Assembly (NCBI GenBank): GCA_937969345.1
Contig: CALBVK010000449.1
Span: 1 to 32,248 of the forward strand
Origin: an uncultured Acidimicrobiales bacterium
GTDB lineage: Bacteria; Actinomycetota; Acidimicrobiia; Acidimicrobiales; SHLQ01
DNA length: 32,248 bases
Direction of reading: 5' to 3'
The translations under genes and the position numbers were made by a program. The first letter of the stretch is position 1. Every line of letters starts with the position of its first letter. Positions 5,271 through 19,721 of the stretch are shown piece by piece. The notes below the pieces were generated by a model. That model worked only from the letters and a program-made list of their open reading frames with translations. It did not search any database and was not told where the DNA came from.

Positions 5271-6620
5271 ATGCGAGCTAACCGTTCCGTGCGTGCCCTG
5301 TCCGTCCTTTTGAGCGGGGCCCTTCTGGCTGTGGCATGTGGAGGCAATACCGACGACGCTGACATCATTGCGGACGCGGAGACCGCAGACTTGATCGCAC
5401 CGACCACAGCCGTTTCCGAAACCACAGCCGCTCCCGAAAGCACAGCGGCAGCTGTGGTCGAGGAGGACACCGGCGAAGGCGTGGAAGACGACGCGCTCGA
5501 CGCTGACGCCGAACGTGCTCTATTCATCGAAGAGATCACGTTGGTTCTACGCGACTGGCAAGCGGCAGGAGACCTGCCCGCCGTCTCGTTGTCGGTTCAT
5601 ATGCCAGATGGTGAGCCCATCAATATCGCATTGGGTGTCGCGGACCTGCAGACCGACGTGCCCGTGACGACGGAGGACTACTTCCGTATCGGAAGTATCA
5701 CCAAGCCCATGACTGCGGCGATCGTCTTGCAGCTGGTCGACGAAGGTTTGATCGAGCTCGACGCCACCGTTGAGAGCTACCTGCCCGGCTGGCTGGAAGG
5801 TTATGAATACGCGGACGAGATCACCATTCGTCAGCTGCTCAACCACACCAACGGGCTCGTTGAGTACGCGCTATCACCGTCGTTCTACGCACTCGCGGGC
5901 CAGCGCTCCGATGTGGCAATTACACCTGAGGAGATCCGCGAATGGCTGGCCCGGCAGCAGCCGCTGTTTGCGCCCGGTACCGAGTATCAGTACGAGACCG
6001 GTGGCTTCCTCACGTTGGGTGATGTGATCGAGTTGGTCACCGGAAACAGTGCCGCCGCGGAGATGCGAGCGCGAATCTTTGAGCCAGCGGGCGCGGAGAA
6101 CATCTACCTCACGCCCGAAGAATTTCCGCCGACACCCGTTGTCAACGGATACGGCCGCGCAGAGATGTACCTCGCTGGCACGGTTCTCGTCGGGCGCGAA
6201 GATACCGACGGTCTCACGATTCTCGACGAGCCGGTGATCGACCTATTGGGTCAGCCGCAGGAGGTGCTGCAGTCGGCGGGTTGGACCGGCGGTGGCAACG
6301 AGGCTCAGCTCGAGTCGGTGGCGGCCATCATGGGAGCGATGTTCGATGGAACGATCCTCAGTGACGAGCAAATCGCAGAGATGACCGCTCCAACCCTCGA
6401 CGTCAACTACGGCCTCGGGATCGATAGTTCAGAGATAGACGGCGTTCGCGTGTACTCACACGGAGGCGGTGTCCCCGGCTTCCGTAGCCAAGGGAACTAT
6501 CTGCCGGACTTCGACATCTCGTGGGCGGTGTCGACGAATCTCATTCCGCTACCCGAGGGAGCGAGCGTGAACGACCTTCGAAATGCCCTCAACCCGGTGT
6601 TGGTTGCTGCAGCGGGTTAA
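5271..6620 (+). CDS. Serine hydrolase (beta-lactamase class C / D-Ala-D-Ala carboxypeptidase-like), lipoprotein
   Basis: ORF 5217-6620; preferred ATG 5271 gives lipoprotein signal MRANRSVRALSVLLSGALLAVACGG; SxxK motif RIGSITKPMTA; HTNGL and GHGG-like (YSHGGGVPGF) motifs. Confidence 0.88.
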   Translation: MRANRSVRALSVLLSGALLAVACGGNTDDADIIADAETADLIAPTTAVSETTAAPESTAAAVVEEDTGEGVEDDALDADAERALFIEEITLVLRDWQAAGDLPAVSLSVHMPDGEPINIALGVADLQTDVPVTTEDYFRIGSITKPMTAAIVLQLVDEGLIELDATVESYLPGWLEGYEYADEITIRQLLNHTNGLVEYALSPSFYALAGQRSDVAITPEEIREWLARQQPLFAPGTEYQYETGGFLTLGDVIELVTGNSAAAEMRARIFEPAGAENIYLTPEEFPPTPVVNGYGRAEMYLAGTVLVGREDTDGLTILDEPVIDLLGQPQEVLQSAGWTGGGNEAQLESVAAIMGAMFDGTILSDEQIAEMTAPTLDVNYGLGIDSSEIDGVRVYSHGGGVPGFRSQGNYLPDFDISWAVSTNLIPLPEGASVNDLRNALNPVLVAAAG

Positions 6621-13895: not shown

Positions 13896-14720
13896 TTAGG
13901 ACGAGAGCTGTCGGCGGACGTCGTCGGCGATCAGCACCGGATCCTGCAACGGTCCGAAATGCGTGATCGTTGGAAAGTAGTGGAGCGATCCGCTCGGGAG
14001 TGCCTCGGCGATGCGTTCCGCGAGCTGCGCGGGTAGGCCACCGTCGCCGCTCTGTCCAACAACAACGTCGCAGTGAACATCCGAAAGGTGCCCCAGCGTC
14101 ACCGACCCAGCGTTCAGGAACGTTGCTGCTTCGCTCTCGGGTGTGCACTTCAGCGTGACGCCATCCTCGCTGTCGGCGAACCCATGGCGGACGTAGTCGG
14201 ACAGCACATCGGCTCTGAAAAGGCCTAATGGGGGCCGCGACGCGTACCGCTCGAGAGCTGAGGCTCGGTTCGGAAACGAACGCAGACGGCCTCGCGCTGC
14301 TCGGGCAAGCGGCGACTCTCCGGGAAACGGTGCCGGAGGAACGATTGGCTCGAATACATACAGCGAGGCAAAGGTTCCTGGCCGTTCCCGCTCGGCGCCG
14401 ATCAGGGCCGCGCCTCCCATCGAATGACCAAATCCATAGAGCGTTGCGGCGTTCAGATGATCGACGACCCGTAGCGCATCGTCGACCATCCCTAACCAGT
14501 CGAATCCGGCTTCGTCGTGAGGAGCATCGCTGTCGCCGTGGGCTCGAAAGTCGAGAGCGATAACCGTCGCGTCGTGACGGAGCTCGTGAGCAAAGGCTCG
14601 GTAGACCTTGCCGAGAAATCCCGTGGCATGGCCGACGAGCAAGGTCACCGGACCGTCACCGCCAAGGTGGTGGAGGGCGATCTTGCCGACGTGCCCGTCG
14701 ATGAACTCGGTCGTGGTCAT
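13896..14720 (-). CDS. Alpha/beta hydrolase
   Basis: ORF 274 aa; LLVGHATGF, FRAHGDSDAP, GFGHSMGGAALI nucleophile elbow. Confidence 0.88.
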   Translation of the reverse strand: MTTTEFIDGHVGKIALHHLGGDGPVTLLVGHATGFLGKVYRAFAHELRHDATVIALDFRAHGDSDAPHDEAGFDWLGMVDDALRVVDHLNAATLYGFGHSMGGAALIGAERERPGTFASLYVFEPIVPPAPFPGESPLARAARGRLRSFPNRASALERYASRPPLGLFRADVLSDYVRHGFADSEDGVTLKCTPESEAATFLNAGSVTLGHLSDVHCDVVVGQSGDGGLPAQLAERIAEALPSGSLHYFPTITHFGPLQDPVLIADDVRRQLSS

Positions 14721-15244
14721 AGCCGATCGTAGATCCAGTCCTTGGGTTGGTCGCCGTCGTACGGCATCGTGCCGTGAAAGGCACGGGGATCATCGTCGAA
14801 AACAAGTGGAACGAAGTGTCGGTCACCAGCCCACATGGGGAGGTCGGCGGCTTTTCGAACCGCTGCGTCGGGGTCGCACGCTTGGAGCAATCTGGATCGG
14901 TCGATCCATTCGAGCGTCCCCTCCTCGTTGCCCTCCGGCGGGGTTCCGGTCCATGCAGTGACGAGGAAGATGAAGCCCATCCAGTCCTCGTCCTTTGGCC
15001 CGAAGTTCGTCCAGGTGATCGTGCCGCGCAAGGCAATGTCATCGAGGATCAGGCCGGTCTCCTCGTCCAATTCGCGGCGGAGGCTGGCAAGGATGCCCTC
15101 GTCTGGTTCGAGCTTTCCGCCAAGCCCGTTTACTTTGCCGAAGTGATCGTCATCGGGCCGGGCATTGCGCCGGATCATTAACACTCGATCAGTGTCTCGA
15201 TCCCATAGATAGGCAAGCGTTCCAACAATCGGCAAAAACGGCAC
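14717..15244 (-). CDS. NUDIX hydrolase (8-oxo-dGTP diphosphatase-like)
   Basis: ORF 175 aa; Nudix box GLGGKLEPDEGILASLRRELDEETGL; 4-nt overlap with the following hydrolase gene. Confidence 0.92.
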   Translation of the reverse strand: MPFLPIVGTLAYLWDRDTDRVLMIRRNARPDDDHFGKVNGLGGKLEPDEGILASLRRELDEETGLILDDIALRGTITWTNFGPKDEDWMGFIFLVTAWTGTPPEGNEEGTLEWIDRSRLLQACDPDAAVRKAADLPMWAGDRHFVPLVFDDDPRAFHGTMPYDGDQPKDWIYDRL

Positions 15245-15272: not shown

Positions 15273-15334
15273 GGTACCTGGTACCAAACGGCAAAAAGGT
15301 ACCTGGTACCTTTCGGCCAAAAGGTGCCAGGTTC
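15273..15334. repeat. Upstream RAYT-flanking 25-bp repeat array: two intact GGTACCTGGTACC units (15273, 15298) plus a degenerate unit (GGTGCCAGGTTC, 15323)
   Basis: Direct reading: period 25 bp; 13-bp near-palindromic core and ~12-bp spacer AAACGGCAAAAA / TTTCGGCCAAAA. Confidence 0.9.
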
Positions 15335-15453
15335 GTTCACATCTTCCGATCTGACTCCGAATTGGCTTCGTTGCTTTCGCCGGGTCTATCGTTTGGCATC
15401 GGCATTGTTGCTGGTCACTTCCCCTTAGAACATCTCTTCAAGGAAGACCAACA

Positions 15454-16089
15454 GTGCCCCGACCCCTTCGGATCCAATATCCGGGAGCCTGGTACCACGT
15501 GATGAATCGCGGTGCCTCCCGACAGAACATTTTTCGTGACGTTCATGACCGGCGAGACTTTCTCGTGTGCCTTGCGTCTGCCGCAAGTCGAACTGCGGTG
15601 GAGGTGCACGCCTACGTCTTGATGGGCAACCATTACCACTTGCTGTTGAGGACTCCGCACGGAAATCTCGACACAATGATGCACCTTCTAGGTCGCAACT
15701 ACGCCCGGTATTTCAACGATCGGTATGACCGTGACGGCCGACTGTGTACCGATCGCTACTTCCCAATTCTTGTCGACTCCGACCGGTATCTCTTAGCGGT
15801 CTCGCGCTACATCCACAGAAATCCGACCGCTTTCGGGATCACGTCGCTTGGTGACTACTTTTGGTCGAGCTATGCGGCGTATCTGGGGAATCGTCGCCCG
15901 CAGGAATGGTTGCACACCGACTTCACGCTGACGCTTGCCGGCGGTTTGAGGGCGTATGAGAGTGTGGTTGAAAGCCCGCTGCCGACGGAGATCGACCTTG
16001 TGTACTCGTCAGGTAAGCCACCGCACGTGCTTGGCCCTGAGCAGTTCCGCCAGGCGGCGATTGCAAAGGCTGCCCAGGCGAGCCAATGA
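15454..16089 (+). mobile_element. REP-associated tyrosine transposase (RAYT; IS200-like Y1 HUH)
   Basis: ORF 211 aa; MPRPLRIQYPGAWYHVMNRG, HUH motif GNHYHLLLRTP, catalytic-Tyr region GRNYARYFNDRYDRDGRLCTDRY, YIHRNPT. Confidence 0.92.
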
Positions 16090-16091
16090 GA

Positions 16092-16179
16092 GGTACCTGG
16101 TACCAAACGGCGGAAAGGTACCTGGTACCAAACGGCGGAAAGGTACCTGGTACCAAACGGCGGAAAGGTACCTGGTACC
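16092..16179. repeat. Downstream RAYT-flanking array: four perfect GGTACCTGGTACC units (16092, 16117, 16142, 16167) with 12-bp spacers AAACGGCGGAAA
   Basis: Direct reading, exact 25-bp period, begins 2 bp after the RAYT stop codon, same orientation as upstream array. Confidence 0.95.
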
Positions 16180-16189
16180 GGGGTGGTGG

Positions 16190-16789
16190 TTAGTTGATGT
16201 GGATGTCGGCGGTCATGCCGAGCGGTGCTACGCCGGGGACTCGAGACTCGCGAGAGAAGAGCTCTTCCATCATTGGTATGAAGTCCTCGATAGGCAAGGT
16301 CGGGTAGTCCGGGTCAAAGCAGTTCTGGTCGTAGTTCTGGCAGAACTTCACGCAGGACTCGTAGAACTCATGCTCCTGGTGAACGTCTCGGGCGTTTCGG
16401 TCGCCGTTCATGTGATGGAAGTAGTAGTAGCCCTGGAACAGGCCATGGTGCTTGATCACCCAATGGGTCTCGTCATCGATGTACGGAGCGAGCATCGCTG
16501 CTGCGGTAGCGCTGTGATTTTGCGGAGCGATTGGGTCGCCGATGTCGTGCAGTAAAGCTCCGACCACCATGTCGAGTGACTCGTTGGCTCGAAGGGCACG
16601 GGTGGCCGACTGAAGCGAGTGTTGGTATCGGTCGATCTGGTAGCCCATCTTTGGGCCTTCCATGATCTTGAGCAACGTGACCATGTTCTCGATGAGTTCG
16701 CCTTGGGTGTGTTCGGTGTAGAGCTTGCCGAGCATCTCGTAGTCGGCTTTCGTGCCGTGATCCATTTGCGTCCAGGTGACCATTTCCAT
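16190..16789 (-). CDS. HD-domain protein, possibly of the PhnZ-like mixed-valent diiron oxygenase type
   Basis: ORF 199 aa; YQHSLQSATRA, GALLHDIGD (HD), NHSATAAAMLAPYI, VIKHHGLFQGYYYFHH, NCFDPDY metal-ligand-like residues. Confidence 0.7.
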   Translation of the reverse strand: MEMVTWTQMDHGTKADYEMLGKLYTEHTQGELIENMVTLLKIMEGPKMGYQIDRYQHSLQSATRALRANESLDMVVGALLHDIGDPIAPQNHSATAAAMLAPYIDDETHWVIKHHGLFQGYYYFHHMNGDRNARDVHQEHEFYESCVKFCQNYDQNCFDPDYPTLPIEDFIPMMEELFSRESRVPGVAPLGMTADIHIN

Positions 16790-16829: not shown

Positions 16830-18458
16830 TTAGAGGACGTTGGATCGATCGGCGCGATCGACGATCAGTAGAACGACGGTCGTTACCACCATCAAGATGA
16901 CGCTCAGCGCCATTGCCTGACCGCGAATGCTCTGGCCGGGTTGACTAAGTAGTCGGCCAATGGCCAGCGGAACCGTCATAAAATCGGGTCGCCTTCCAAC
17001 GAAGCTTGTCGCGCCAAACTCGCCGAGTGAGATGGCGAATGCGAATCCGGCTCCCACAACAAGTGCACGTCGTGCGATTGGGAAGTCGATGTCGCGGCGT
17101 ATCTGCGCCGGCGAACTTCCCATGCTTGCCGCGGCTTCGCGAAGGTGCGGGTCGATCGAACGAAGGACCGGCACAACCGCTCGGGTCACGAACGGGATAC
17201 CGATAAGCGCTTGTGTAAGTGGGATGATCATCCATGACTGACGGAGGTCGAGCCAGCCTGAATCGAACGTGATGAGAATTCCGAAACCTAAGGTCACCGC
17301 CGACGTGCCGAGCGGCAGGAGGTACCCAATGTCGAGGAGGCGGGAAACCTTCGCCGAGCTGTAGACGATCGCAATAGACGTCCACCCACCGACGACGGTC
17401 GCGATCGCCGTCGCAACGATCGCGAACCACAGTGAATTGACGAGCGCCCGATGCGGGCTCACGGTCAGAAAGGGTGGGCGCTCAGCGAGGGACCGGTAAT
17501 TGTCGAATCCAATTCCCGAACCGGTCTGAAGTGACTGCTCGACGAGGATGATGATCGGGACGCTGAGTAGCCCGATCGTGGAGACGATAGTGAACCACGA
17601 CAGGACGCTCGTACGTCCGTTGGGTGCCGGTCGGGCGCGCTCTGCGAGACGGTCGCTTTGGGCCAGCGACGACCGGAGCCGCAGGTTAAGTGCGACGAGC
17701 GCTACGACGGCGATGAGCTGCACGATCGAGAGCGCCGCAGCGGTGGCAAAGTCGGTGCGGCTGATCGCATAGCGGAAGACTTCCGTCTCGATGGTTCTCT
17801 GGCGTGCGCCACCCAGGATGAGTACGACACCAAAAGACGTGAACGTGAAGAGGAAGACGATCGACGTCGCGGCAAGTAGGGACGGGCGGAGACGTCGGAG
17901 CGTGATTCGAAAGAACGTCTGCCAGGCGGGCGTGCCCAAGGTGCGTGCAGCGTGTTCGTCGTCTCGGGAGAGCTGCCCCCAATAGCTGCCAACCGTGCGA
18001 ACCACCACAGCAACGTTGAAGAAGACGTGAGCGACGAGGATGGCGAACACTGACTTCGACAGTGAGAACGGACCGGAGGTAGCGCCGAGCCGGTCGCCGG
18101 TTGCGAGAAACGCGCCGGCAACGACGACGGTCGGCAAGACGAACGGCACGGTGACGAGCGCCTGCACCAAGCGCCGGCCTCGGAAGTTCACATTGGCGAT
18201 CACCGCAGCAAGGGGTAGTGCAACGACCAATGTCAACACGGTCGACGCAACCGCCTGCCACAACGTGAACCAGGCGACCGAGCGAATCGATGCCGACGTG
18301 AACGTTTCGACGATTGCGCCATTGCTGTCGGAGAGCCCTCGCCACAACAGTTGAGCCACCGGCCACACGAAGAAGAACGCGAGAAACACCGTCGGGCCGA
18401 CCGCGAGACCGGCCCGACGCAAAGTCTGGGGCGTTAGCTGGCCACGATGGTGTTCCAT
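16830..18458 (-). CDS. thiP: Thiamine (or iron)-type ABC transporter permease with two permease domains
   Basis: ORF 542 aa, many TMs; EHAARTLGTPAWQTFFRITLRRLRPSLLAA and REAAASMGSSPAQIRRDIDFPIARRALVVGAGFAFAISLGEFGATSF (EAA-type loops); downstream of a TPP riboswitch. Confidence 0.85.
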   Translation of the reverse strand: MEHHRGQLTPQTLRRAGLAVGPTVFLAFFFVWPVAQLLWRGLSDSNGAIVETFTSASIRSVAWFTLWQAVASTVLTLVVALPLAAVIANVNFRGRRLVQALVTVPFVLPTVVVAGAFLATGDRLGATSGPFSLSKSVFAILVAHVFFNVAVVVRTVGSYWGQLSRDDEHAARTLGTPAWQTFFRITLRRLRPSLLAATSIVFLFTFTSFGVVLILGGARQRTIETEVFRYAISRTDFATAAALSIVQLIAVVALVALNLRLRSSLAQSDRLAERARPAPNGRTSVLSWFTIVSTIGLLSVPIIILVEQSLQTGSGIGFDNYRSLAERPPFLTVSPHRALVNSLWFAIVATAIATVVGGWTSIAIVYSSAKVSRLLDIGYLLPLGTSAVTLGFGILITFDSGWLDLRQSWMIIPLTQALIGIPFVTRAVVPVLRSIDPHLREAAASMGSSPAQIRRDIDFPIARRALVVGAGFAFAISLGEFGATSFVGRRPDFMTVPLAIGRLLSQPGQSIRGQAMALSVILMVVTTVVLLIVDRADRSNVL

Positions 18459-19552
18459 CGCTCGGTCCAGTCGTCCCGGTTCGTCTCGATAAGCGCTGGG
18501 TCGAGGGTTAACGCATCATCGACGAGTGGTCCCCATTCGACGAATGCGTCCGGGAGCGCTGCCTCGCCATTGGCCGGATAGACGAACATGTTCAGGGGGA
18601 CGTCTTCCTGGAAGGTTGTGCTGAGCATGAAGTCGATGAGTGCCGCCGCTGCTTCGGGGTTCGGGGTGCCATTGAGAACACCTGCGAACTCGATCTGACG
18701 GAAACAGCTGTCCTGAAGCACGCCGGTTGGAGGCGCGTCGACGGGGGGATCGGCGAAGAGGAACTCCGCTGGTGGGCTTGACGCGTAGGAGGTCACGATC
18801 GAACGAGCGCCGCCTCCGGCGATGAACTCTCCGTAGTACGCATCACTCCATCCGGCCGTGATCGACACATCGTTCTCGACGAGCGAGGCCCAGTAGTCTT
18901 CCCAGCCGTCCTCGCCGTACTTGGCGATCGTGGCAAGGAGGAACGAGAAGCCCGGCGATGAGGTCTCGGGGTTTTCGGTGACGAACTGACCAGCGTTGAT
19001 CGGGTCGATGAGATCGTCGAGCGAGTCAGGGGCGTCCCCGGGCAGAGCATCGGACCAGTAGTTGACGCACACGTCTCCGTAGTCGATAGGTGTAAGGCGA
19101 TGGAACGGATCGAGCTCGAGTTCGTCTGCAACGTCGTCGAGGCCTGGTGAGGTGTACGGGACGAATAGGTCGGCCTCGATTCCACGGCACATGAAGCTGT
19201 TGTCGATGCCAAACAAGACATCGGCGGTGGGGTTGTCCTTGGTGAGAACAGACTGGCTGACGAGTTGACCGGCGTCGCCAACAGCAACTTGTTCGACGAT
19301 GATTCCGGTCTGGTCGGTGAAGGCGGCGAGCGTGGTGTCGCTGAGCGCGAACGAGTCGTGGGTTGCCAGCGTGATCGTGGTGCCGGCGAGCCCGTCCGCG
19401 CTCACGTCGGTGATGGCCTCGATCGAGGGTTCATCAAAGCATGTTGAGGTCGTCTCACTCGAGGTGTCATCGCCGCACGCGGTGGCGAGCAACGCAAGCG
19501 CGGCGATCGAAGCGACCGCCCGAGTCAACGGGCGAGCAAATAGGTGAATCAT
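18434..19552 (-). CDS. thiB: Thiamine ABC transporter substrate-binding lipoprotein
   Basis: ORF 372 aa; lipobox LALLATACGD; ITLATHDSFALSDTTLAAFTDQTG, ADVLFGIDNSF, PIDYGDVCVNYW; directly follows a TPP riboswitch. Confidence 0.88.
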   Translation of the reverse strand: MIHLFARPLTRAVASIAALALLATACGDDTSSETTSTCFDEPSIEAITDVSADGLAGTTITLATHDSFALSDTTLAAFTDQTGIIVEQVAVGDAGQLVSQSVLTKDNPTADVLFGIDNSFMCRGIEADLFVPYTSPGLDDVADELELDPFHRLTPIDYGDVCVNYWSDALPGDAPDSLDDLIDPINAGQFVTENPETSSPGFSFLLATIAKYGEDGWEDYWASLVENDVSITAGWSDAYYGEFIAGGGARSIVTSYASSPPAEFLFADPPVDAPPTGVLQDSCFRQIEFAGVLNGTPNPEAAAALIDFMLSTTFQEDVPLNMFVYPANGEAALPDAFVEWGPLVDDALTLDPALIETNRDDWTERWNTIVAS

Positions 19553-19557
19553 GTCAT

Positions 19558-19652
19558 CTTCCTCCGCTGGAATTACCCAGTTCAGGTCATGCGGGTCGGT
19601 GACGCTGTCGTCACCCTCTCAGCCCGGCATATGCCCGAGCTCCCCGGTGGTT
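19558..19652 (-). promoter_or_regulatory. TPP riboswitch (THI element) upstream of thiB
   Basis: Reverse complement CCACCGGGGAGCTCGGGCATATGCCGGGCTGAGAGGGTGACGACAGCGTCACCGACCCGCATGACCTGAACTGGGTAATTCCAGCGGAGGAAG contains conserved GGGGAGC, CTGAGA(G), GACCC, CCTGAACTGGGTAATTCCAGCG. Confidence 0.95.
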
Positions 19653-19721
19653 GGATTGTTGTGTGAAGTCTACGCCGATTGTTGAGTGAGCGACGAGGAA
19701 TCGATGCGGACGAAGTTCTGC

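Follow-up and report, generated by a model that had tools for sequence, protein, structure and literature searches.

The locus lies in a window of 32,248 nucleotides (the whole stretch of DNA that was analysed) from an Acidimicrobiales MAG, whose assembly comprises 3.9 Mb in 455 contigs and is 84% complete. It is formed by a gene for a RAYT-like transposase, P0001, with short repeats arrayed on both of its flanks, and is bordered by two genes outside the system. The features are the following:

14717..15244, minus strand: NUDIX-domain neighbour, outside the system (Pfam NUDIX, 2.3e-16)
15273..15285, plus strand: upstream unit 1, exact GGTACCTGGTACC
15298..15310, plus strand: upstream unit 2, exact GGTACCTGGTACC
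15323..15337, minus strand: upstream unit 3, in opposite orientation, AACGAACCTGGCACC on the minus strand (15323-15335 as GGTGCCAGGTTCG), matching the standard outer end of dispersed copies
15454..16089, plus strand: RAYT-like Y1 (HUH) transposase P0001, 211 aa, GTG start (Pfam Y1_Tnp, 9.8e-12)
16092..16104, plus strand: downstream unit 1, exact GGTACCTGGTACC, beginning just past the stop codon
16117..16129, plus strand: downstream unit 2, exact GGTACCTGGTACC
16142..16154, plus strand: downstream unit 3, exact GGTACCTGGTACC
16167..16179, plus strand: downstream unit 4, exact GGTACCTGGTACC
16190..16789, minus strand: HD-domain neighbour, outside the system (Pfam HD, 1.2e-07)

No tRNA or Rfam family was identified at the RAYT locus. 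Elsewhere in the window a TPP riboswitch (Rfam RF00059, 57.4 bits) lies at 19542-19656 on the minus strand, just upstream of a minus-strand ORF (18434-19552), and a short 18-bp tandem repeat of 2.4 copies lies at 5403-5446.

P0001 contains NHYH at residues 59-62 and Y119 with N123 and P124 (YIHRNP), all of them invariant among ten aligned relatives, and this combination of an HUH motif with a catalytic tyrosine in Y---NP context is the one that characterizes RAYT / TnpA-Y1 class 2. The protein scores 57 bits against NCBIfam REP_Tyr_transpos, under the 80-bit cut-off, and lacks a C-terminal HTH, no C-terminal domain being identified at E values up to 0.5; a weak Bac_DnaA_C was identified in its relatives L028 and L029. 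The AlphaFold model (mean pLDDT 81) has as its top PDB fold match 4er8, the E. coli TnpA-REP in complex with a REP hairpin (E 6.4e-8, TM 0.72 on target, 14% sequence identity in the structural match), and the PDB sequence search gave no match. P0001 is a member of the RAYT superfamily and, judging from its motifs and its homology to HTH-bearing relatives, would be nearest to group 1 / TnpA-Y1 subclass 2.1 / TIRYT (group names as in the summary by Quentin 2018, PMC6006769, of the groups defined in Bertels 2017). The first-pass annotation had called the repeat arrays non-canonical, which stands for the RAYT/repeat pairing, and had compared the gene with REP-type RAYTs, whereas it falls on the group-1/TIRYT branch.

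The host presents four further RAYT-like genes, one of them cut by a contig end, and each adjoins a different repeat. Repeats on both sides of a Y1 transposase would also be expected if the locus were an ordinary autonomous insertion sequence of the IS200 type, bounded by terminal repeats and with deleted copies (MITEs) spread through the genome, and the 65-bp elements described below are MITE-like. This origin is quite unlikely: the P0001 gene is single-copy and occupies a syntenic place in four genomes, the other host RAYTs are just 33-45% identical to it, its tyrosine motif is Y---NP and not Y---Q, and the hairpins at the gene form direct-orientation arrays instead of two subterminal hairpins.

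The repeat had been described as a 13-bp core with an exact 25-bp period on both RAYT flanks, and this description was borne out. At up to two mismatches GGTACCTGGTACC has 13 strand-matches in the window against 0.22 expected, a number that 0 of 100 shuffles reached; the six exact units at the RAYT are all in direct orientation on the plus strand, and both arrays were recovered by Tandem Repeats Finder with a period of exactly 25 bp. The spacers are AAACGGCAAAAA and then TTTCGGCCAAAA upstream and AAACGGCGGAAA, three times, downstream, and the 12-bp pattern proposed for them, AAACGGCRRAAA, fits with the exception of one upstream spacer. The exact counts of two units upstream and four downstream were correct, but the third upstream unit, taken to be degenerate, is not mere decay, since it has the sequence with which dispersed copies normally end on their outer side. 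The flank-to-flank repeat score of the locus is 40.5, equalled by 0 of 600 control pairs, and such agreement between the repeats of the two flanks is a TIRYT trait. A two-mismatch copy, GGAGCCTGGTACC, is located inside the RAYT gene (15484-15496, plus strand) and encodes the conserved PGAWYH motif; it is probably a coincidence, with self-regulation conceivable.

Two direct units had been expected to pair into a 12-bp hairpin with a T-T mismatch and a 12-nt loop, and DNA folding agrees (-11.6 kcal/mol, z -4.3). A single unit is also predicted to fold alone, with a stem of 5-8 bp and a CTG or CAG loop; together with AAA/TTT the stem is of 8 bp, the loop of 3 nt and the energy -5.1 kcal/mol. The pair is thus predicted to form the hairpin that had been proposed, but the candidate recognised unit is probably the mini-hairpin that one 13-mer forms, CAG/CTG loop included, and not only the pair. 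The repeat is equally unlike a classical REP, the GTAG/GGAG foot being absent and the feet being AAA/TTT or AAA/AAA in all copies.

Copy numbers in the host (G000 in the genome labels) and in its relatives were obtained by pattern searches of their genomes. The search of the host for dispersed arrays, proposed by the first-pass annotation, gave 26 exact GGTACCTGGTACC units that are not confined to the RAYT locus: they occupy 13 sites, six units belonging to the RAYT locus and the other 20 spread over 12 sites elsewhere, and the reversed control gave 0. A gene flanked by a genome-dispersed repeat is another character of RAYT / TnpA-Y1 class 2. Dispersed copies usually consist of two units in opposite orientation, with a 25-bp step between them, accompanied by a variant third unit; this three-unit element of ~65 bp has the layout AACGAACCTGGCACC-TTTTnnncAAAA-GGTACCAGGTACC-TTTTnnnnAAA-GGTACCTGGTACC and is predicted to fold as a whole into one strong hairpin (-22.2 kcal/mol, z -7.2). 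All the GGTACNNNGTACC palindromes of the host are CAG/CTG-centred (26/26), and those of genomes without a P0001 orthologue have mixed centres. In L004, L008, L015, L021 and others (13 sites) the outer end AACGAACC is preceded, at a distance of 4-7 bases, by a weak A-G-A/T-T preference; this consensus to the left of the outer end is possibly a candidate target or cleavage site.

Ten of the 12 dispersed sites are intergenic according to codon-usage gene calls, some of them between converging genes. Short intergenic palindromes in which AAAA-stem-TTTT resembles a terminator might instead be double-stranded sites or RNA hairpins (terminators, or operators for a host regulator) that multiplied through ordinary duplication and of which the RAYT gene merely carries some. 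This explanation is unlikely, since both the number of copies and the sequence of the stem go with the RAYT orthologue, and almost all RAYT genes of the family have arrays on both flanks, each gene with a different stem, so that a common host factor is not an explanation.

The relation with the orthologue is quantitative. Exact units number 26, 29, 7 and 3 where the best P0001 match has 100, 95, 69 and 67% identity, and 0-3 in the remaining genomes (19 of the family). With the whole element and its flanks as query, 23, 22, 45 and 20 matches, counts that include flank matches, were obtained in the four orthologue genomes, to which the synteny of the RAYT locus is common, and 0-3 in the other seven of the genus. 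Array and dispersed copies drift together, GGTACCAGGTACC prevailing in G000 and G015 and the T variant (GGTACCAGGTTCC and similar) in G016. The same arrays were looked for in RAYT-less genomes, and the two of the family carry 0 and 1 copies. Neither of the two outcomes that the first-pass annotation had named as refuting, repeats confined to this locus or the same arrays dispersed where a RAYT is lacking, was thus obtained, and the distinct RAYT/repeat pairing that it suggested is supported.

Among 247 genomes sampled from the class, orthologue genomes apart, counts above 4 were identified only in G201 and G252. These two (L202-L214) present intergenic (GGTACCT)n 7-bp tandem arrays, which mimic the 13-mer and are a different repeat type; they were rejected as counter-examples, the arrays being heptamer microsatellites. 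A search for a P0001-like gene in both, which included no genome known to match, found none. The presence of such microsatellites in unrelated genomes of the class gives some ground to a chance tandem-repeat expansion around an unrelated gene, an account made highly improbable by the 25-bp units, their alternating orientation and fixed outer end at 13 sites, by the same repeat family on both gene flanks, and by the dispersal and the orthologue correlation.

Twelve of the 13 host sites, RAYT locus included, are common to G015, and therefore there is no sign of recent movement; with most sites common to the closest genomes, the system appears to be old and largely quiescent. The comparison of empty sites in sister strains, also proposed at first, gave no clean ones between G000 and G015. 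At L019, a candidate site lost from G015, gene order differs between the genomes, and the intergenic region of G013 that corresponds to L094 of G015 lacks the element, the flanks being 78% identical and the comparison not base-exact. Tandem duplications of ~111 bp that span the element and adjoining host sequence were identified in G015 (L086, 1113-1290; L087, 1204-1380) and are absent from the same G000 sites.

Of the 48 RAYT genes of the family with both flanks, 37 share between these flanks a repeat exceeding the 95th percentile of pairs drawn across loci, and the other 11 have no significant flank repeat. Palindromes with perfectly matched 5-bp arms around a 3-nt centre were counted within 200 bp of 56 RAYT genes. 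The CAG/CTG centre is present at 31 of them, every other centre at three or fewer; by copies it reaches 81 against at most 3 for the others, 25-fold above control regions. CAG-centred palindromes also occur inside 8 RAYT genes, being the commonest centre there too. Compact arrays of period ~13 (TGGAGCCTGGCAC) or 12 (GTGTCAGAGCAA) flank the RAYT genes of L039 (1449-1490 and 2190-2308) and L052 (1334-1418), where they replace the spaced hairpins.

The stems are ten in all, including GGTAC, GGTGC, GGGGT, AGGGA, GGGGA, GGGGG and TGACT, and they track the RAYT tree (Mantel r 0.39, p 2e-4), a result that speaks to stems only, because only CAG-centred units were admitted by the finder used for the tree, and that, like the other comparisons here, draws on related genomes, which are non-independent samples. 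A four-member clade has AGGGA, a second four-member clade GGGGA and a pair GGGGG, and the P0001 clade has GGTAC and variants of it; GGTGC is seen again in a distant clade (L066), and therefore stems can recur. Genome-wide copies largely follow the resident stem. GGTGC palindromes with any centre number 174, 154, 85 and 44 in genomes with GGTGC RAYT flanks, and 7 and 11 in G000 and G015; GGGGTCAGACCCC numbers 167, 128 and 110 in three genomes with strong GGGGT arrays, and 3 and 1 in two genomes without a RAYT match. AGGGACAGTCCCT is confined to six genomes of one genus: three contain an AGGGA-clade RAYT gene, and G015, G017 and G018, MAGs that are incomplete, have copies with no RAYT of that clade assigned.

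The wider comparison set comprises 80 group-1-like RAYT loci, mostly from Proteobacteria, and CAG-centred palindromes are not enriched at them. A CAG palindrome general to the group-1 RAYTs of other phyla was consequently rejected; those carry GGGGTCAGGTCT-type inverted repeats. Flank-to-flank repeats above control were identified at 31 of 69 group-1-like loci, mostly inverted, of the GGGGTCAGGTCT type and ~50 bp from the start codon, and they fit GGGGWSAS, the TIRYT motif of Di Nocera (PMC3733652). The simplest history would be that the terminal repeat of group-1 RAYTs turned, in this actinobacterial line, into a symmetric hairpin whose CAG is fixed and whose stems are free.

The substrates of Y1 transposases are single-stranded hairpins. 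The reading favoured here, in which we have fairly good confidence, is that of a REPtron-like locus on the group-1 RAYT branch: a one-locus Y1 (HUH) single-strand DNA transposase with a private hairpin repeat which it reads and cuts and which it moved or copied, RAYT and stem having changed together. The recognised unit would most likely be the 13-mer, as single-stranded DNA a GGTAC/GTACC stem, often lengthened by AAA/TTT, with a 3-nt CTG or CAG loop. The enzyme would read the invariant loop together with the stem, the tyrosine of P0001 would cut beside the hairpin, and the ~65-bp three-unit element, in the order outer end AACGAACCTGGCACC, CAG unit and CTG unit in 25-bp steps, would have been moved or copied into intergenic sites; RAYT and stem would have been altered jointly as lineages diverged. 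What the sequences display directly is the arrays, the dispersal, the agreement of the local array with the copies across the genome and the invariant CAG/CTG centre; the protein fold and the hairpins are predictions, and binding, loop reading, cleavage and mobilisation by P0001 are what we infer.

One group-3 TnpA-REP requires a perfectly palindromic substrate whose 3-nt loop includes a base that cannot be substituted (PMC8266576). By analogy with it, the CAG/CTG loop could serve as constant contact and strand mark and the stem as private contact. Sister RAYTs with differing stems and the same three-base centre suggest enzyme-hairpin pairs that changed together. A wider proposal, offered tentatively and with rather less than even confidence, is that the group-1 RAYTs of this family are diversified nucleases of single-stranded DNA hairpins with a two-part address, namely an invariant strand-marking CAG/CTG loop and a clade-private 5-bp stem; up to five pairs would coexist in a genome without crossing, and the address would have changed as enzyme and repeats acquired substitutions in parallel. 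The RAYT flanks and the genome reveal which repeat, fixed in its loop and variable in its stem, goes with each enzyme. How RAYTs choose their repeats and keep up with them can therefore be tested directly with swapped stems, loops and enzymes, and many natural enzyme-hairpin pairs become open to comparison.

Several known systems share traits with this one. IS200/IS605 elements have the HUH-Y1 core and the hairpin logic, but P0001 has no adjoining tnpB, is not multicopy (near-identical gene copies at several places of one genome were not seen) and presents Y---NP instead of Y---Q. The group-2 TnpA-REP/BIME of E. coli (4er8) shares the fold, a single gene and dispersed intergenic palindromes in alternating orientation; its REPs are bulged GTAG stems of 29-37 nt, whereas the units here are 13-mers in 25-bp steps, and the GTAG/GGAG tetranucleotide that canonical REP-type RAYTs (groups 2 and 3) have at the hairpin foot is lacking. 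The group-3 TnpA-REP of the Stenotrophomonas REPtron Sm (PMC8266576) is similar in having a perfect palindrome whose 3-nt loop is constrained in sequence, in several RAYT/repeat pairs per genome and in enzyme-repeat co-evolution, but there a GTAG foot goes with group-3 proteins and here no GTAG with a group-1 type protein.

The closest systems, by the NHYH and Y---NP motifs, are TIRYT/TIRtron (PMC3733652) and RAYT group 1 / subclass 2.1 (PMC6006769). Some relatives of P0001 keep a DnaA-like C-terminal HTH, repeats are found on both sides of the gene, and the core GG..CAG of the host repeat is common to the TIRYT motif GGGGWSAS and to the GGGGTCAGGTCT repeats of Proteobacteria. P0001 itself differs in lacking the C-terminal HTH (Bac_DnaA_C or similar) of this group, and in place of GGGGWSAS terminal repeats there are GGTACCAG in the host repeat and GGGGTCAG and GGGGACAG at same-genus sister RAYTs. 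Di Nocera 2013 described some dispersed TIR families, dimers and partly self-complementary TIRs (PMC3733652), and in Quentin 2018 no REP-like sequences were found for subclass 2.1 (PMC6006769); a literature search for the repeat sequences themselves gave nothing relevant. Published surveys have left the largest RAYT branch (group 1 / subclass 2.1) without REP-like partners, or with just loosely related terminal repeats. Compared with TIRYTs, the repeats here are symmetric hairpin units with up to 174 copies, and the novelty lies in stems that differ by clade around an invariant CAG/CTG centre, in the 25-bp arrays and in the quantitative agreement of the genome-wide repeat with the RAYT.
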